This document shows positions 46,142-54,395 of a stretch of DNA of 64,000 nt, one piece after another (the first letter of the stretch is position 1; each line of letters starts with the position of its first letter). The stretch comes from Gemmatimonadaceae bacterium. Lineage in GTDB: Bacteria; Gemmatimonadota; Gemmatimonadetes; Gemmatimonadales; Gemmatimonadaceae. The translations under genes were made by a program, and so were the position numbers. The notes beneath the pieces were generated by a model that was not told where the DNA came from, made no database searches, and worked only from the letters and a program-made list of their open reading frames with translations. The stretch covers positions 124,001 to 188,000 of the forward strand of contig JAUQWM010000005.1 of the NCBI GenBank assembly GCA_030835125.1. Reading direction: 5' to 3'.

Positions 46142-46627
46142 TGGATGCGTGCGTGAGCGCGTCGGGGATTCGTAAGGGAGATTGGACTTCTCAGTGACAA
46201 CCTACTCGCCGCGTTCCTGGATAAACCGGTAGAACTGAACGGCGGTATTCGTTGTTACCGCTCAGCATGATCGGGCAGTGCCGCAACCGACGCAAGCGCG
46301 ATCCCAGGTAGCAGACCGCCGACAGGACTGGGGAGGGTAGGTCCTTAGCGACTGACTGAAGCACCCCCAGCCTACCAGCGAACGGCCGACACACAAGGCA
46401 CAATTCTCATTCGCGACGCCGCCCTCACCAGCCCGAATGGGCTAACCGCCGTCGCGCGGTCACTCGCAAACACCGTTGCCAAATATGGCCTGACTCCCAG
46501 CCCGGTCCGACGGATGAATCGCGACGAGTACCGCACGCCACTGATTTCCACGTTGGACTCGACATCCGTTGAGCAGAGCGGCTGCGCCTCCTCCGCGCCA
46601 CCGCGTCTCGCGTGAGAAGCTTTGCAC
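46142..46627. other. Gene-poor left part of the island
   Basis: No coding frame has protein-like composition. GGCTAACCGCC at about 46439 is similar to an attC left box. The minus-strand frames here (46191-46403, 46425-46706) show no motif. Confidence 0.35.
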
Positions 46628-46760
46628 GGAACCCGCCGTCAGGGACCAAGACCGCAATTCGTAAGCCTGACGACCCCTGACGACCATCCGCCATCCCCGC
46701 TGGCAACCGCCACTCTGGCGGAGGCGACCAGTCGGTCCGATCTTCTCGCCATGACCGGAC
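46628..46760 (+). repeat. Left 133-bp imperfect direct repeat of the defence locus
   Basis: It aligns without net gaps to 52337-52469 (offset 5709). Shared blocks are CCCGCCG, GACGACCCC/GAGGACCCC, ACGACCATCCG, CACTCTGGCGGA, CCGATCTTC and CGCCATGACCGG. The ATG at 46751 corresponds to the start codon of the AAA gene at 52460, but the frame ends after seven codons. This is a leftover of the same 5' leader. Confidence 0.75.
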
Positions 46761-46807: not shown

Positions 46808-48613
46808 ATGAAGAATCCACAACCAGATCCGGAGCCACCACCTCCGACGACGGCGTCGCCGCCGTCGGTTCCGGCGATCTACGAGCTCACGATTACTCGG
46901 TTCCGAGGGATCAGTGCGCTCACTTGGCAGCCGGCCAAGGGTGTCAACCTCGTTCTCGGTGGCGGCGACGTCGGCAAGAGCACAATCCTCGACGCGATTG
47001 GTCTGCTCCTCAGTCCAACCAACGCGGCGAACCTGTCGGACACGGACTACTACCTTCGTGACGTCGTCGCCGAGTTCGCGATCGAGGCAGTCGTGTCCTT
47101 GCCCTTGGCGGGCAAGGTCAATCAGCAGGTCAAGCCGTCGTGGCCATGGGTGTGGAACGGCAGCGCGGCCATCGTCCCCAGTATCGAAGGCGACGGACCA
47201 TCGACCTCAGAAGCCGTCTACCGCGTGCGCGTTCGCGGAACTGCCGACCTCGAACTCGCATTCGAAATCGTTCAGCCTGACGGCGCCGCGGATCACTTCT
47301 CCGTTGGCTTACGTCGATCCATCGGGCTCGTGCGACTTAGCGGCGATGATCGGAGTGACCGCGATCTTCGACTCGTGCAGGGCTCGGCCCTCGACCGTCT
47401 TCTGTCCGACAAGGCGCTCCGGTCTCGAATCGCGAGCGAGCTGGCGAAGACCGATGTCCACGAGCGGCTCGCGCCTGAGGCGAAGGCGGCCCTGGAGAAC
47501 CTGGACAAGACGTTCGCGAAACAGGGCTTGCCGAGTGGCCTAGATGTGTCGATCACTGGTGGACCCGGAGTATCTGTCGCGTCGTTGATCGGTCTACGCG
47601 CAACTAGGGCCGGTAAATACCTGCCCCTCGTAAGTTGGGGGGCTGGCACTCGCCGTCTCGCATCGCTGACGATCGCGGAGCAGAATCAAGGCGATCACCC
47701 CGTCATGCTTATCGATGAGATAGAGCGTGGCCTCGAACCCTACCGGCAACGGATGTTGCTCGCAAAGCTCCAGTCGGGAAGTTCGCAGGCATTCGTCACT
47801 ACGCACAGTCCGGCTGCCATCTCGGCCGCGTCCGAAGCGGCGCTCTGGTACGTTGACCACAACCAGAGGGTAGGACGACTTGCGGCTGCGAAGATCGCGA
47901 AGCACCGGTCGAAGGACCCGGACATGTTTCTCGCGCGTGTCGCGATTGTTTGTGAGGGCATCACGGAGGTGGGATTCGTGACGGCTCTACTCGAAGCGAC
48001 CCTCGGCTCGTCACTGCACCACCATGGCGTTCATGTCAGCGATGGCGGCGGAAACGACACGACGCTCGATCTCCTGGAGGCGTTGGCTGACGCGGGGATA
48101 CTCTTCGGGGGCTTTGCCGACGACGAGGGCAGGCATCCCGACCGGTGGCGGGCGGTGATGGCGGCGCACGGCGCGCTGCTCTTTCGGTGGGCCACCGGGT
48201 GCATCGAGGAGAACATTCTCCGTGCCGTCGGCGATGACCAACTGGAGGCCTTTCTGGTCGATCCCGATGGGGACGAGACGGGCACCCGGTTGCGGACCCT
48301 CGCTGATCGCATGAACATGGGCGACGAGAAGGGGTTTGCCGCCCTCCGTGACAGAGCAGGGGCTCGGTTTCGGGACTTTATCGTTGCTGCAGCAACCGGC
48401 GCGGTACCCGATGGAATAGAGGATCGCGATGCAAAGAAGACGCACAAGGCACACGCGCGCTGCTGGTTCAAGAACAACGAGGGCGGTCGCGAACTCGCGA
48501 GGAAGACGTTTCAGCTCGGGTGCTGGTCGGCGGTGAAGGGAGAGTTGCTTCCATTCTGCAACGCGGTACGAAGAGTTGTGGGGCTTGGCGATGTGCCGGA
48601 CGTGCAGCTGTGA
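46808..48613 (+). CDS. OLD-family ATPase with TOPRIM nuclease domain (GajA-like)
   Basis: The protein has 601 residues. The ABC-type ATPase half has Walker A GGGDVGKST (51-59), a signature-like SWGAGTRRLASL (277-287), Walker B PVMLIDEIERGLEP (298-311) and TTHSP. The TOPRIM half has VAIVCEGITEVGF with probable catalytic Glu383, and FADDEG (436-441). Such OLD nucleases cut DNA and are controlled by nucleotides. The gene overlaps a UvrD-like helicase gene by GTGA, the GajA-GajB layout of the Gabija anti-phage system. The Walker A sequence is unusual (GGGDVGKS instead of GxNxxGKS). The ATG at 46808 follows CCTAACGCA. Confidence 0.85.
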   Translation: MKNPQPDPEPPPPTTASPPSVPAIYELTITRFRGISALTWQPAKGVNLVLGGGDVGKSTILDAIGLLLSPTNAANLSDTDYYLRDVVAEFAIEAVVSLPLAGKVNQQVKPSWPWVWNGSAAIVPSIEGDGPSTSEAVYRVRVRGTADLELAFEIVQPDGAADHFSVGLRRSIGLVRLSGDDRSDRDLRLVQGSALDRLLSDKALRSRIASELAKTDVHERLAPEAKAALENLDKTFAKQGLPSGLDVSITGGPGVSVASLIGLRATRAGKYLPLVSWGAGTRRLASLTIAEQNQGDHPVMLIDEIERGLEPYRQRMLLAKLQSGSSQAFVTTHSPAAISAASEAALWYVDHNQRVGRLAAAKIAKHRSKDPDMFLARVAIVCEGITEVGFVTALLEATLGSSLHHHGVHVSDGGGNDTTLDLLEALADAGILFGGFADDEGRHPDRWRAVMAAHGALLFRWATGCIEENILRAVGDDQLEAFLVDPDGDETGTRLRTLADRMNMGDEKGFAALRDRAGARFRDFIVAAATGAVPDGIEDRDAKKTHKAHARCWFKNNEGGRELARKTFQLGCWSAVKGELLPFCNAVRRVVGLGDVPDVQL

Positions 48614-50130
48614 GCGATGACAGCGTCCGTGCTGCGCTCAGATCCGCATACTCACTTGTAGTCGTGGAGGCTCCAGCCGGTTGCGGCAAGACGCATCAGG
48701 GTGCGGACTACGCCCGTGAACTTGTGGATGGCGTCGGCCACGGCCGACCGCTGATCCTGACGCACACACACGCAGCATGTTCGGTATTCGCCGAACGTAC
48801 CAAGGGGGCGGGCACCAAAGTGGAGATTCGTACCATCGACAGCGTCATCGCCAACGTCGCGGCCGCATATCATGTCGGACTTGGTATTCCGGCGGACACC
48901 GCGTCATGGGTCCGCCAGCAGGAAGATGGATACGCGATGCTGGCGCAGAAGGTGGCGCTGTTGCTGACGCGATACCCGATGATCGCGTCGGCGCTGGCGT
49001 GCCGCTATCCGGTCGTGATATGCGACGAGCATCAAGATTCAAGCGGAGACCAGCACGCGATCGTGATGGCGATGCTCGAAGCGGGTGCGAGGCTTCGCGT
49101 CTTCGCCGATCCGATGCAGTCGATCTTTCGGGACAAGTCCGTTACAGGCTCCAAACCGCCGTGGGACTGGACCGCGCTCCAGGCCAGGGCCCAAGTCAGT
49201 GACGAGCTCGATTTGCCGCACCGGTGGAAAGACGGCTGTCCGGATCTGGGCACATGGTCGCTCGCGGCGCGCCGCAGCCTTTTGAACGACCAGCCCATCG
49301 ACCTCCGAACAGGCGTGCCATCGAGCGTTGCTGTGGTCGTGGCCGAGAATCAAGCCCAAAAGAATCTCGAATACGCCCTGTCGAAGAGTGCTCGCAAGCC
49401 CATGGATCAGTTCGTGGAGCGCGACGCTTCGCTTCTGGTCCTCACGCGTCACAACCAAACGGCGAAGTCGTTGCGCGCCTTCTTCGGGCGCCGAGTTCTG
49501 CTGTGGGAGGGGCATACGAGGTCAGCGTTGGAGGGCCTCGTGGACCGCATAAGCTCCGCCAGAGGAAACAGCGCCGGGCTTGCCGAAGCGGTCGTCTCGT
49601 TCATGGGCGATGTTGGGAAGGGCTTTAGCCCGTCCGCATTCGGTGATGCGTTCGTGCAAGAGGCTACGGAGGGCTGCACGAGGATCCGAAAGGGAAAGCC
49701 AGCGACGATTCAATGTCTGGCACGGTATATCGTTGACGATCCAAGCCACTATGGCGTCGCCAGGTGTCTTGCGCGCATCGACGAGCTGAGGAAGTCGGAC
49801 GCGGCGTTCGCTGCCGTCGAGATTGACCACGCCAGCGAGTTTCGCGACGCCATCCGGCTGGGAGATCACGAGAATACGGATGAGGGGCTGGCCCAGATCA
49901 CGCACCATCGGACATACTCACGGCCTCTACCACCGAGGAAGGCGATCAGCACCATCCACAAGGCCAAGGGACTTGAGTGTGACAGCGTAATCGTGATGCC
50001 CTGCGATGCGAAGACGTTTCCCGGCAACCGCGAGGCCCGGTGCCTTCTCTATGTCGCCCTCAGTCGCGCGAAGAAGCGGTTGATGCTCGTAGTGTCACGC
50101 CAGAAGCCGAGCCCGTTGTTCCTTATGTAG
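48610..50130 (+). CDS. UvrD/Rep-like superfamily 1 helicase (GajB-like)
   Basis: The protein has 506 residues from a GTG whose last two bases overlap the previous stop. Motif I is APAGCGKT (21-28), Ia THTHAA, II VVICDEHQDSS (135-145), III LRVFADPMQSIF; the later motifs include ISTIHKAKGLECDSVIVMPCD and LLYVALSRAKKRLMLVVS. It lacks the 2B insertions of full UvrD and is the size of GajB (about 500). In Gabija the helicase partner activates or loads the OLD nuclease. The overlap with that gene implies coupled translation and a joint complex. Confidence 0.88.
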   Translation: MSDDSVRAALRSAYSLVVVEAPAGCGKTHQGADYARELVDGVGHGRPLILTHTHAACSVFAERTKGAGTKVEIRTIDSVIANVAAAYHVGLGIPADTASWVRQQEDGYAMLAQKVALLLTRYPMIASALACRYPVVICDEHQDSSGDQHAIVMAMLEAGARLRVFADPMQSIFRDKSVTGSKPPWDWTALQARAQVSDELDLPHRWKDGCPDLGTWSLAARRSLLNDQPIDLRTGVPSSVAVVVAENQAQKNLEYALSKSARKPMDQFVERDASLLVLTRHNQTAKSLRAFFGRRVLLWEGHTRSALEGLVDRISSARGNSAGLAEAVVSFMGDVGKGFSPSAFGDAFVQEATEGCTRIRKGKPATIQCLARYIVDDPSHYGVARCLARIDELRKSDAAFAAVEIDHASEFRDAIRLGDHENTDEGLAQITHHRTYSRPLPPRKAISTIHKAKGLECDSVIVMPCDAKTFPGNREARCLLYVALSRAKKRLMLVVSRQKPSPLFLM

Positions 50131-50165: not shown

Positions 50166-51092
50166 ATGGCAAAGTACGTCCTCACCCGCTATGCGTTGGG
50201 CGAGCACCCGCGGCTGACCCTGAACGTCGATGAATACACAGCAATCAGACGCGCCCGTGACAGCCTTGGTGAGGCGCTCGCGATCGAAGAACGCCTCGAG
50301 CTCGTGTTGCGCAACGCAGAGGAATTCGAGTGCGATCTCCTCGCAGCCTCACTGAGAGCGGCTTTTTACAGCGATGGGCGTGGTTGGCACTCGGCAATAG
50401 GCACATTGCAGGAGTTGTCGCGCCGAGTCCTTAATGTGCTCACGACCACGAAAGCGTATGTTGATCAGATGCACGGTGCCATGAGCACTCTTTATGGCGA
50501 TGGATCCGAAAGAGAGGCGGTCAAAACTGCATTCAGTAAAGAGTATGACACGGTGTTGGGCTATCGGACCTGCGAGGCGCTTCGCAATCATGCACAACAC
50601 GCCGGCGAGTCAATCCATGGATTGAACTCGCGTTTCGCTTGGCGAGATAGGCCAACAGGTTCTCGGGTCCGCGTGCATCATATGGTTGTGACGCTTGATT
50701 CTGCCCGCCTTCTCGCAAGTGATGCGTTCAAGCGGACCGTAGCCAACGAATTGGTTGCCGCCGGTGAGACGCACGACCTCGTAATGTTTCTACGTCAATA
50801 CATCAGCTGCCTCGGTCGAGTCCACGTCGCTGTCAGGCAGCTAATGCGGAAGGATCTGGAAGCGTGGGATGCGCTTATCGAGGAAGAAATGCAACGCTTC
50901 TTGCGAGAACCTAGCGCTCAGGGCGACACGACGGGTCTCGCTGCGCTTCAGCACGATGATAAGGATGTGGTCGTCGAGGTAGTTCAGGTCTTCGCGAAGC
51001 CTACCGAGCGTCGCAAAGCTCTCGCGGCGCGGAATGTTAACCCACACCAGCTGGATTCAATCGTGATAACCAGCGAAAACAACCCGCCCTAA
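50166..51092 (+). CDS. Unrecognised protein with RX4H (HEPN-like) motif
   Basis: The protein has 308 residues from the ATG at 50166, 35 nt after the helicase gene in the same direction. It is mostly helical. YRTCEALRNHAQHAGESIHGL contains R140-NHAQ-H145, an RX4H pattern typical of HEPN ribonucleases, flanked by two long predicted helices (about 90-135 and 195-240). No other motif is recognised. By position it is a third gene of the defence operon; a toxin-like RNase effector or a regulator are both possible. The C-terminal 60 residues look flexible. Confidence 0.7.
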   Translation: MAKYVLTRYALGEHPRLTLNVDEYTAIRRARDSLGEALAIEERLELVLRNAEEFECDLLAASLRAAFYSDGRGWHSAIGTLQELSRRVLNVLTTTKAYVDQMHGAMSTLYGDGSEREAVKTAFSKEYDTVLGYRTCEALRNHAQHAGESIHGLNSRFAWRDRPTGSRVRVHHMVVTLDSARLLASDAFKRTVANELVAAGETHDLVMFLRQYISCLGRVHVAVRQLMRKDLEAWDALIEEEMQRFLREPSAQGDTTGLAALQHDDKDVVVEVVQVFAKPTERRKALAARNVNPHQLDSIVITSENNPP

Positions 51093-51219: not shown

Positions 51220-52314
51220 CTACGGTGACCGCGCTCCTGTCCTTAGGAGTTCAATGGTGAAGTCCAAGCTCGCACTCGCGTCCCGTTCTTCATTTGCAAT
51301 CACGCTCGGATCGGCGGTGCTCGGCCAGACCGGAGAATGCGATAGCTCACCCAGCCTCGTGGCTGCCAATTCAACAAGGAACCCGTCCTTCGTGCGCCGC
51401 AGAACCTGCCCGAGTACTGCCGCCGTAGCTCCCGACAGAAGATCGGCGACTTGCAGCTGCGGCACGGAATGAGAGTCCGCAAAGCGGACTCCGGTTGCCA
51501 GAATTGGAAGGGTCCAGTTGCGGCCAGCGCCCTTGAACTCGCGGCTAGGCTTCGCGAACGACATCAGCCTTTCGAGGACTTCTTGGTGATGTTCGATCGG
51601 CTTTGAGCGGTCGTGAACGATCTCGAACGAGACCTGAAGCGTGTGAGTCCACTGTGCTGCCAGATCGATAAAGGTGGGCACTGCCGGGTCGATGGCAACG
51701 GGGTCGAAGGGTGCGATTGCCTCGGTGACGATGGCCTGGGTAGCGGCCAACATCCCCAACGTGCTGCGAAAGTCTGCGTCTCGGCTCGTATCCCGAAGCC
51801 TCTCGACCTGCGCGTAGAATGACGCAATTGCCTCGGCCGATGGCCGGCGCACAAGCGCAACAAATCGTCGCTGCAGCTCGGCGAACTCGGCGGCCCCGCA
51901 GAACACTGGCGTGACTACGTGGATCAGGTTCGCGAGTGCAAGGTTGGCGCCGCGATCGTACAGGTTGATGCCGTTTCTGTAGGCAAGCGGCTCGATGAGC
52001 AGGTCAACGATCTTTGTCGTGACTAAGAAGGACTTGTGATAGACGCCAAGCTTGACGAGTTCATCGGAGATCCGCTCGTCGTTGAAAAATGCCAAGAGCT
52101 TGCGTCTCCCGGCCGACGATCCGCGCAGCGCGGAGAACTTCGCCTCGATTGCTCCCGTTCGCGCGGTATGAGCCAACAACCCTCGTGCCGTGTCGTCATC
52201 GACATGCACGGCAGCGAGCACGAACACCGGCTGGGCGGGGTCAAGTAGGTTCTGACCGGTGTTCCCAGTCTCGTCGAAGGCGACGAGATCCAACACCGAA
52301 AGCGGGGAAGGCAT
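51220..52314 (-). CDS. DUF3800 domain protein
   Basis: The protein has 364 residues. The N-terminus VLDLVAFDETGNTGQNLL has the DExGN motif (Asp14, Glu15) and the C-terminal VRFADSHSVPQLQVADLLSGATAAVLGQ has the conserved SxxxQxADLL motif. Together they define DUF3800, an RNase H-like fold whose acidic residues suggest a nuclease. Members are frequent in defence islands and prophages. It converges on the RX4H gene with 127 nt between. Start ATG at 52314. Its role in the defence locus is inferred from position. Confidence 0.78.
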   Translation of the reverse strand: MPSPLSVLDLVAFDETGNTGQNLLDPAQPVFVLAAVHVDDDTARGLLAHTARTGAIEAKFSALRGSSAGRRKLLAFFNDERISDELVKLGVYHKSFLVTTKIVDLLIEPLAYRNGINLYDRGANLALANLIHVVTPVFCGAAEFAELQRRFVALVRRPSAEAIASFYAQVERLRDTSRDADFRSTLGMLAATQAIVTEAIAPFDPVAIDPAVPTFIDLAAQWTHTLQVSFEIVHDRSKPIEHHQEVLERLMSFAKPSREFKGAGRNWTLPILATGVRFADSHSVPQLQVADLLSGATAAVLGQVLRRTKDGFLVELAATRLGELSHSPVWPSTADPSVIANEERDASASLDFTIELLRTGARSP

Positions 52315-52336
52315 ACGCCGAATGGTAGCTCCTCAA

Positions 52337-52469
52337 GGGACCCGCCGCCCTGACCAGGACCACAATTGGTAAGCCGGAGGACCCCTAACGACCATCCGGC
52401 CTCCTCCCTGCCCATCCGGCACTCTGGCGGACACCAACAGTAGGCCCGATCTTCCCGCCATGACCGGGC
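52337..52469 (+). repeat. Right 133-bp imperfect direct repeat of the defence locus
   Basis: This is the partner of 46628-46760, with the same length, orientation and about three of four bases equal by eye. It contains the leader and first codons of the AAA gene (ATG at 52460). The four defence-like genes lie entirely between the two copies. Confidence 0.75.
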
Positions 52470-53086
52470 CCAACTCGTGGCTCCCCCTCCCCCTGGTGGG
52501 ACGGCAACAGGAACTGACCGTCATCCGGCGCGCCCTCGGTGCTGCGGCCAAGGGTGACGCCGGTGCCGTCGTGATCGCGGGTGGCCAGGGCGTCGGCAAG
52601 ACCCGACTCCTCGAAGCCGTCCTCGCCGAAGCCACGGAACGCGGCTTCATCATCGCCCACGGGACGGCCTCCCAGACCGACGCCGACGTGCCGTACGCGA
52701 TCCTGGGCGAGGCGTTCACGCCCGTGGTCCGCTCGCTCGACAGCGCCACGCTCAACAAGCTCGCGGGCGGGGCTGCGGCCGACCTGGCGCGGGTGGTGCC
52801 GGGCTTCGACGCGAATCCCGCCAGCGCGCGCCTGACGCCCGAGGCGCCGGACGACCTCACCATGCGCGTGCGCTGGCACTTCATGCAGTGGGTGGAGCGG
52901 CTGGCGGCGTGGCAACCCCTGGTGCTGGTCATCGACAACGCCCACTGGGCCGACCCCTCCTCAGTGGGACTGGTGCAGTTCATCCTGCGGCACGCGCCGC
53001 GCGCGCGGCTGCTCGTCCTGGCGGCGCACAACCCCACCGAATCGGCCGTCGGCGCACCGTTCGGCAACCGTTCTTGCTGCTGCTGA
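52460..53086 (+). pseudogene. Truncated AAA/LuxR-type ATPase gene
   Basis: The protein has 208 residues. It begins like large AAA regulators: LPLPLVGRQQELTVIRRALGAAAKGDAGAVVIAGGQGVGKTRLLEAVLAEA (Walker A GGQGVGKT), VPYAILGEAF, and Walker B LVLVIDNAHWADPSSVGLVQFILRHAP. Full proteins of this type have 800-1100 residues with TPRs and often a LuxR helix-turn-helix. Here homology ends at AVGAPFGNR, followed by SCCC and a stop, so about three quarters of the gene is missing. The breakpoint at about 53070 is the right edge of a rearrangement. Confidence 0.75.
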
Positions 53087-53108: not shown

Positions 53109-54395
53109 ATGACCTGCCGAAGGGGGCTTGTTCTAGAGGGCGGCGGCGCAAAAGGAGCATACGCCTTTGGTTGGCTGATGGAGTTTGCAGCCCGCGGATT
53201 GCGATTCGACGCCGTCGCCGGGTCGTCTGTGGGCACCCTGAACGCGCTGCTGTGGGCAAGCGGACAGATCGAAGCAGGTGAGGAGGTGTGGCGTACGATC
53301 TCTGAAGAGACCACCCTCGCCGTCCGACGGCCGAAGTGGTTGTGGTCGATCCTTGCCCTACCGTTCGCCTTACACCGCCTGCTCGCAGAGCGCGTATCAA
53401 ATCTGAGTGACAACGTCACCCGCACCTATATAGCGTTGGGTGTCGCGGCGACGACGGCAATGCCGGTCTTGTGGGCAGCGACCGAGGTGCCGAAACGAGT
53501 GGTCCTGCGAGCCGCAGTCCTCGTACATCCTCCGACTGGCTTCGGTGAGGGGTTCGCCAACACTTTGTTGTTCATTCAATGGGCGCTAATCCTCTGTGGT
53601 GGATTCTTTACGCTGCTCGCGACCGTGTTTCCTGGAGACGTCGGAGGACTGATCCGGTTTTCCTGGCGCTCGTCCACGCCTCTTCGACGAACGATAGAGA
53701 GGATCCTTGCGAACCAACGACTTGCAGTCCCCACATTCGCCACGGTCGCCCAGTACCGCGAAGTGTCTGAGCCAGGACAATTACGCTTCCTGCGAGGAAG
53801 GGCTGCACCAAGCGGATTCTGGACGGGGCGCGACCGCTATGTGCCTGCCTACCTGCCGCTCCACGAAATGACCGAAGATCGGGTGGCCGCCTTTGCATTG
53901 GCCAGTGCCTCTCTGCCGTATGGCATTACGCTCCCGGTTCCTGACGGTGACCGCCTCCTTGTCGACGGCGGCGTGGTGGACAATTCTCCGACGCTCCCGT
54001 TGATAGACAAAGAACAGTGCCAACTCATTGTTGTCATCAAGCTCAGACAAGTCCCAGGGTCTACCGCTCAGCGATATGCGGACACGTACCAGCGGTTGAA
54101 GCGCCTGATGATTGCGGCCGAACTCACGCCCAGTGAGGCTAGTCGCATGAACACTTTGAAGAGCGACGAACCGAGCACATGGCCTGAGTTTCTCACGATC
54201 ATGCCTTCGCGCCCCCTGGGGTCGCTCCTGTCTGCGGGCGGTGAGGATGTCCGACGGTCATCTGCCTTCAGGGAGTTTCGAGCGATGCTGAGATTCGACC
54301 CTGGGTATGTGCACAGGCTGATCGCGCTCGGCCGTTCTGACGCTGCCGGACAGCCCGAAGAGTTCTGGCGTCGCCTTTCCGATCAAGCGGACTAA
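53109..54395 (+). CDS. Patatin-like phospholipase with inserted membrane hairpin
   Basis: The protein has 428 residues. The patatin core has oxyanion loop GGGAKG (11-16), nucleophile Ser40 in GSSVG, and catalytic Asp286 in DGGVVDNSP. Two hydrophobic segments (105-124 and 150-174) are inserted between the nucleophile and the dyad Asp; they look like a membrane hairpin. The enzyme would deacylate membrane lipids. Patatins are known effectors in anti-phage systems (for example CapV in CBASS), and this one lies next to the Gabija-like locus, but no sensor gene is adjacent. GC content looks below that of the chromosome. Confidence 0.85.
   Translation: MTCRRGLVLEGGGAKGAYAFGWLMEFAARGLRFDAVAGSSVGTLNALLWASGQIEAGEEVWRTISEETTLAVRRPKWLWSILALPFALHRLLAERVSNLSDNVTRTYIALGVAATTAMPVLWAATEVPKRVVLRAAVLVHPPTGFGEGFANTLLFIQWALILCGGFFTLLATVFPGDVGGLIRFSWRSSTPLRRTIERILANQRLAVPTFATVAQYREVSEPGQLRFLRGRAAPSGFWTGRDRYVPAYLPLHEMTEDRVAAFALASASLPYGITLPVPDGDRLLVDGGVVDNSPTLPLIDKEQCQLIVVIKLRQVPGSTAQRYADTYQRLKRLMIAAELTPSEASRMNTLKSDEPSTWPEFLTIMPSRPLGSLLSAGGEDVRRSSAFREFRAMLRFDPGYVHRLIALGRSDAAGQPEEFWRRLSDQAD

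Follow-up and report, generated by a model that had tools for sequence, protein, structure and literature searches.

Two overlapping genes lie on the forward strand of a 64,000-nucleotide stretch of a Gemmatimonadaceae genome, hereafter the window. The gajA-like gene (46808..48613) encodes 601 amino acids and the gajB-like gene (48610..50130) encodes a UvrD-like SF1 helicase of 506 amino acids; both are intact. They share the four nucleotides GTGA at 48610-48613, which contain the GTG start of gajB and the TGA stop of gajA. An earlier note, made from the sequence letters, had proposed a Gabija-like pair at this position, and its coordinates, reading frames, protein sizes, and overlap all proved exact. 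The GajB start is consistent with homologues, and GajA begins with a proline-rich tail of ∼22 residues, found elsewhere in the alignment only in the closest relative. The gajAB stretch has a GC content of 0.611, compared with 0.671 and 0.673 in its surroundings.

The pair is followed by a third gene on the forward strand (gene 3, 50166..51092), which begins 35 nt past the gajB stop and encodes 308 amino acids with an invariant LRNHxQH motif, and by a convergent gene on the reverse strand (51220..52314) for a 364-amino-acid DUF3800 protein (Pfam PF12686, E = 7e-8). We place both outside core Gabija, gene 3 as an accessory. All four genes are flanked by a 141-nt imperfect direct repeat on the forward strand, the left (46618..46758) and right (52327..52467) copies of which are ∼80% identical and the only two detected genome-wide. 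The arrangement suggests a cassette that was inserted or recombined. A recent target-site duplication as the source of the repeat was rejected on account of the low identity of the copies, and no empty site was found in relatives because the neighboring genes are themselves sporadic. A short AAA_16 ORF (208 amino acids, 52460-53086), apparently a truncated regulator ATPase, has its start within the right copy. Adjoining the cassette is a patatin-like phospholipase gene (53109-54395, PF01734) with weak resemblance to CBASS effectors, and this gene is absent from the 117 other genomes of the family that were searched.

We compared both proteins with profile libraries, including PADLOC, which the earlier note had named as a check. 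The best PADLOC models were GajA for the first protein (PDLC04168; E = 1.3e-72, residues 23-569) and GajB for the second (PDLC04173; E = 1.1e-58, residues 16-498), in each case near full length. Existing PADLOC models already cover this branch. In Pfam, AAA_21, AAA_15, and OLD-like_TOPRIM scored above the cut-off in GajA, and UvrD_C, UvrD_C_2, and UvrD-helicase matched GajB. NCBIfam yielded only subthreshold RecF, PtuA, and UvrD-type matches for the two proteins, with the RecF model reaching 46 bits against GajA for a cut-off of 172 bits. The resulting layout of GajA comprises an ABC ATPase (residues ∼23-350), a TOPRIM domain (∼374-460), and a C-terminal helical domain (∼466-590). The OLD-type order of ABC ATPase and then TOPRIM is present by Pfam and by full-length fold match, as the earlier note had read it.

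An AlphaFold2 model of GajA, built from 43 sequences (pLDDT, 86.5), found its best structural match in the Class 1 OLD of Thermus scotoductus (TsOLD, 6P74; E = 4.9e-18), followed by Bacillus cereus GajA (8sm3_A; E = 2.5e-17), both over ∼620 to 650 alignment columns. The OLD nuclease of retron Eco8 was also among the full-length matches, whereas Rad50 and SMC aligned over ∼370 to 470 columns and covered the ATPase half only. TM-scores were modest (0.4 to 0.5) and rmsd values large, as expected where domains differ in orientation. The C-terminal domain, a feature absent from Class 1 OLD proteins, is predicted to form seven helices at residues 466-590 in a confident part of the model. The GajB model (pLDDT, 91.4) matched Rep, UvrD, and PcrA best, with GajB of B. 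cereus lower (8sm3_B; E = 2.6e-12).

Sequence searches separate the pair widely from the B. cereus prototype, in line with the distant branch suggested earlier. With window GajA alone, phmmer did not reach B. cereus GajA in the PDB at E ≤ 1; a 9-sequence profile reached it weakly (E = 0.006) and the 43-sequence profile clearly (E = 2.4e-11), and we therefore regard the protein as a distant but still recognizable member. Since a profile of the TOPRIM domain alone failed to recover GajA from the PDB, the matching of residues to B. cereus GajA relies on their spacing and on the predicted fold. Likewise, sequence similarity between the TOPRIM half and solved OLD proteins is at noise level, and its support comes from fold and spaced residues only.

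Conservation of key residues was counted over 43 sequences for GajA and 42 for GajB. The GajA Walker A motif GGGDVGKS (residues 51-58; 46958..46981) has its GGG, G56, K57, and T59 invariant in 43/43. GGG had been built into the search pattern, and its constancy across the GTDB set therefore partly reflects how those sequences were chosen; the same four elements are also constant in all nine members of a second alignment (A2) comprising the window protein and eight relatives found without that pattern. The earlier note was right that the loop departs from GxNxxGKS, but this is no defect, since the general P-loop rule GxxxxGK[ST] still holds. Gabija-like pairs from two separate sources, G143 (L049, 6195-9420) and a viral contig (L163, 4312-7457), have the P-loop GxGDSTKS, in which Thr replaces the Gly before Lys. 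Walker B D303-E304 (47714..47719) and H333 are invariant in GajA (both 43/43).

Within the TOPRIM domain, the acids E383 and E387 (47954..47968) are invariant (43/43), and D438-D439-E440 (48119..48127) forms a DxE version of DxD, with D438 in 43/43 and position 440 occupied by E in 39, D in 3, and T in 1 of the 43 sequences; E383 and the DDE triplet are as the earlier note had described them. A candidate metal-B ligand is E467 (48206..48208), which opens the helical domain, is conserved in 42/43, and lies in a modeled helix (466-473); no other acid between E440 and K555 is close to invariant. K555 (48470..48472), within an invariant WFK (43/43), is a candidate catalytic lysine.

We then compared these residues with those published for B. 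cereus GajA (E379, E383, D432, D434, D511, D513, and K541; PMC10822852) and BpOLD (E400, E404, D455, D457, T506, E508, and K562; PMC6755086). The +4 spacing of E383 and E387 equals that of GajA E379/E383 and BpOLD E400/E404 (PMC10822852, PMC6755086), and the first three acids are spaced +4 and +51 both here and in BpOLD. From its place in the model, E467 probably corresponds to BpOLD E508, with Cys in the window protein at the position of Thr506, and by position K555 likely corresponds to GajA K541 and BpOLD K562. Of the two-metal set E, E, DxD, (T)xE, and K, E383, E387, and D438 are conserved, as are the putative equivalents E467 and K555; DxD is mostly replaced by DxE among the 43 sequences, and Thr by Cys in the window protein. 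The next conserved acid follows DxE after 27 residues, versus 51 in BpOLD and 77 to 79 in B. cereus GajA.

B. cereus VD045 Gabija (PDB 8SM3, 8J4T, and 8JQB) has the same two-gene order and similar protein sizes, with an ABC ATPase plus TOPRIM nuclease followed by an SF1A helicase with DEXQD. Its GajA has catalytic E, E, and D similarly spaced and a terminal lysine, and it matches the window GajA model over its whole length, although structural alignment gives only ∼15% identity. BpOLD and XccOLD resemble the window pair in having TOPRIM followed by a helical domain, a helicase gene directly downstream, and two-metal residues largely kept; the sequence match to the XccOLD CTR is weak (E = 0.43), and the helical domain is ∼125 amino acids here versus ∼73 in BpOLD. 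Unlike B. cereus GajA, the window protein has a GGG[DN]xGK[ST] P-loop and DxE in place of DxD. As read from alignment and model, these two features, together with a short TOPRIM core and a long helical domain, are the marks of the branch.

All SF1 motifs inspected in GajB were intact, bearing out the earlier description of a complete helicase. Walker A (APAGCGKT, residues 21-28; 48670..48693) has A21, G24, G26, K27, and T28 invariant in 42/42, and in the DEHQD box (residues 139-143; 49024..49038) D, E, Q, and D are invariant (42/42) and H nearly so (41/42). The helicase box had been thought to differ from that of B. cereus GajB. The letters do differ, with DEHQDSS here (residues 139-145) and DEYQDSD there, but the sequence does not fall outside the GajB pattern, as DEXQD is the box defined for GajB (PMC10781630) and the window protein fits it.

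Among 395 genomes of the phylum, there is one close copy, in another member of the same family (G047), with proteins 84% and 82% identical. Two further genomes (G040 and G143) contain weaker matches (32 to 34% identical), and the remainder have partial ATPase matches or none. Nine plasmid relatives share 47 to 59% identity, several of them on conjugative plasmids. A genome scan with the single window protein gave nothing usable; a profile scan of GTDB genomes recovered 77 loci, mainly from Pseudomonadota, with some from Verrucomicrobiota, Acidobacteriota, and Planctomycetota. No match was found in the annotated phages searched. In the tree, the window protein pairs with that of G047 and then joins a supported group with Rhizobiales, beta-proteobacteria, one Verrucomicrobium, and one member of the Acidobacteriota, which suggests horizontal transfer.

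Loci with a full-length GajA almost always have GajB adjacent to it. In the 48 loci where both ends are clear, the genes overlap by 4 nt in 38, by 8 nt in 5, and by 1 nt in 3, and are separated by a short gap in 2. Comparison with the 84%-identical copy gave dN/dS values of 0.124 for gajA and 0.141 for gajB, so selection maintains both genes. Several copies on plasmids are disrupted: gajB is split in L038 (11719-13235), gajA is frameshifted in L044 (7836-9740), both genes are damaged in L046 (7995-11260), and gajB is cut short in L040 (10577-11449) beside a Tn3-type transposase, suggesting frequent loss of the pair. The resemblance to GajA and GajB is not due to chance, given the significant PADLOC and Pfam matches, the near-invariant key residues, the kept pair and overlap, and dN/dS of 0.12 to 0.14.

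The relatives often have defense genes in their neighborhood, which we report as a qualitative statement rather than a measured enrichment. Plasmid relatives adjoin AbiEii with an anti-phage dCTP deaminase, Shedu, or a restriction endonuclease, and the copy in G047 adjoins a type III methylase/restriction pair. The 163 near neighbors in the GTDB loci include retron reverse transcriptases with PRTase or protease partners, as well as Vsr, HsdR, N6 methylases, DpnII-MboI, AbiEii, and phage integrases, amid ordinary genes. Homologous pairs do, then, occur in defense islands, the opposite of which the earlier note would have taken as evidence against its reading. Co-occurrence with other defense genes, type I and III restriction-modification included, is found in relatives but is not evident at the window copy, and PADLOC detected no other clear defense system in the window. 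Strong matches there to single members of multigene models (PD-T4-6, mad6, and a kinase) were read as a generic Ser/Thr kinase and not as a defense system.

Searches of Pfam, NCBIfam, and PADLOC assigned gene 3 to no family. LRNHxQH is kept in all of its relatives, which form an unnamed family of ∼300 amino acids, and contains R-x4-H, the form found in HEPN ribonucleases. From this motif the family may be HEPN-like, and it is a candidate defense or toxin accessory gene. Relatives follow HsdR in G045 and G061, a layout also seen in G224, and in viral contigs they sit between a portal-like and a protease-like tailed-phage gene (names read from sequence, not profiled). Loci of the family include those in L136 (6568-7740), L137 (6375-7427), L164 (6001-6894), and L166 (90-671).

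Taken together, the pair is very probably a Gabija anti-phage system (Class 2 OLD plus UvrD) of a divergent branch, and the Gabija membership proposed earlier is supported by the best PADLOC matches, the Pfam matches, and the OLD and GajA folds, by the conserved catalytic residues and gene overlap, by the defense genes near relatives, by the low GC and patchy occurrence of the pair, and by its dN/dS; phage protection is expected by analogy. A Class 2 OLD beside a UvrD-like helicase is Gabija by definition (PMC10568477), which argues against treating the pair as a separate OLD plus UvrD defense system, built from Gabija parts with a different trigger or cut and deserving its own name. The distance from the B. 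cereus prototype, the DxE, the short spacing to the next conserved acid, and the long helical domain would fit such a system; however, GajA and GajB remain the best-fitting PADLOC models, and gene order, sizes, and overlap agree, so we consider it very unlikely. The idea of a functionally distinct Gabija type is highly improbable; here the rearranged nuclease (DxE, short TOPRIM core, and enlarged helical domain) would recognize or cut a different substrate, with the HEPN-like gene 3 protein as a backup effector in this genome.

The case for a three-gene system, in which the GajAB complex would set off the product of gene 3 (50166-51092) as a HEPN ribonuclease effector, draws on the gene's strand and 35-nt distance from gajB, on the invariant R-N-x3-H, and on a relative that follows gajAB in Lysobacter arseniciresistens (L088, 11291-12181). 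However, no further locus in the scanned set of gajAB relatives carries gene 3, and the G047 copy, 84% identical, lacks it; other relatives of gene 3 lie beside HsdR or in phage structural operons, and a Pfam HEPN profile search gave no match. We therefore rejected gene 3 as a core component, and an effector role of this kind is extremely unlikely. Least probable, to the point of being negligible, is a RecF/SbcC/RecN-like DNA repair ATPase next to a housekeeping helicase with no role in defense. Taken by itself, the ATPase half does resemble RecF, Rad50, and SMC, but it is followed by a TOPRIM with conserved catalytic residues, the structures matched over the full length are those of OLD, GajA, and the retron Eco8 OLD nuclease, and the pair is sporadic, occurs on conjugative plasmids, and adjoins defense genes. 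The TOPRIM architecture and island context refute this assignment, and profiles and folds alike assign the first protein to OLD/GajA instead of RecF/SbcC, the placement that would have counted against the earlier note.

Read as Gabija, the pair would consist of a UvrD-like helicase and an OLD-family nuclease that combines a two-metal TOPRIM with an ABC ATPase. By analogy with studied systems, GajA tetramers would bind GajB to form one ring-shaped complex (PMC10781630, PMC10822852, PMC8136825), in which the ATPase would restrain the nuclease and control access to it. Invading DNA would be nicked, cut, or kept from circularizing, and the target may be linear phage DNA in the absence of RecBCD-type repair enzymes; complex formation, target DNA, and phage protection are all carried over from those systems. 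The mechanism of Gabija is disputed between nucleotide-gated nicking (PMC8136825) and blocked circularization of linear DNA (PMC12407980), the latter proposed in a 2025 Pseudomonas study for linear DNA without RecBCD (PMC12407980). In the window genome, a single large ORF gave a borderline match to PDDEXK_1, and there are several UvrD-type helicases, so a RecB/AddA-like enzyme may be present. A literature search found no report of a member of this branch tested against phage.

Gabija is among the commonest bacterial defenses against viruses. The pair is an ordinary addition to this well-known family and leaves the picture of Gabija unchanged. It confirms that Gabija reaches a distant branch present in Pseudomonadota, Verrucomicrobiota, Acidobacteriota, and Planctomycetota as well as in the phylum of the window, and the branch offers natural variants of the nuclease active site (DxE, and Cys for Thr) for probing the two-metal site.
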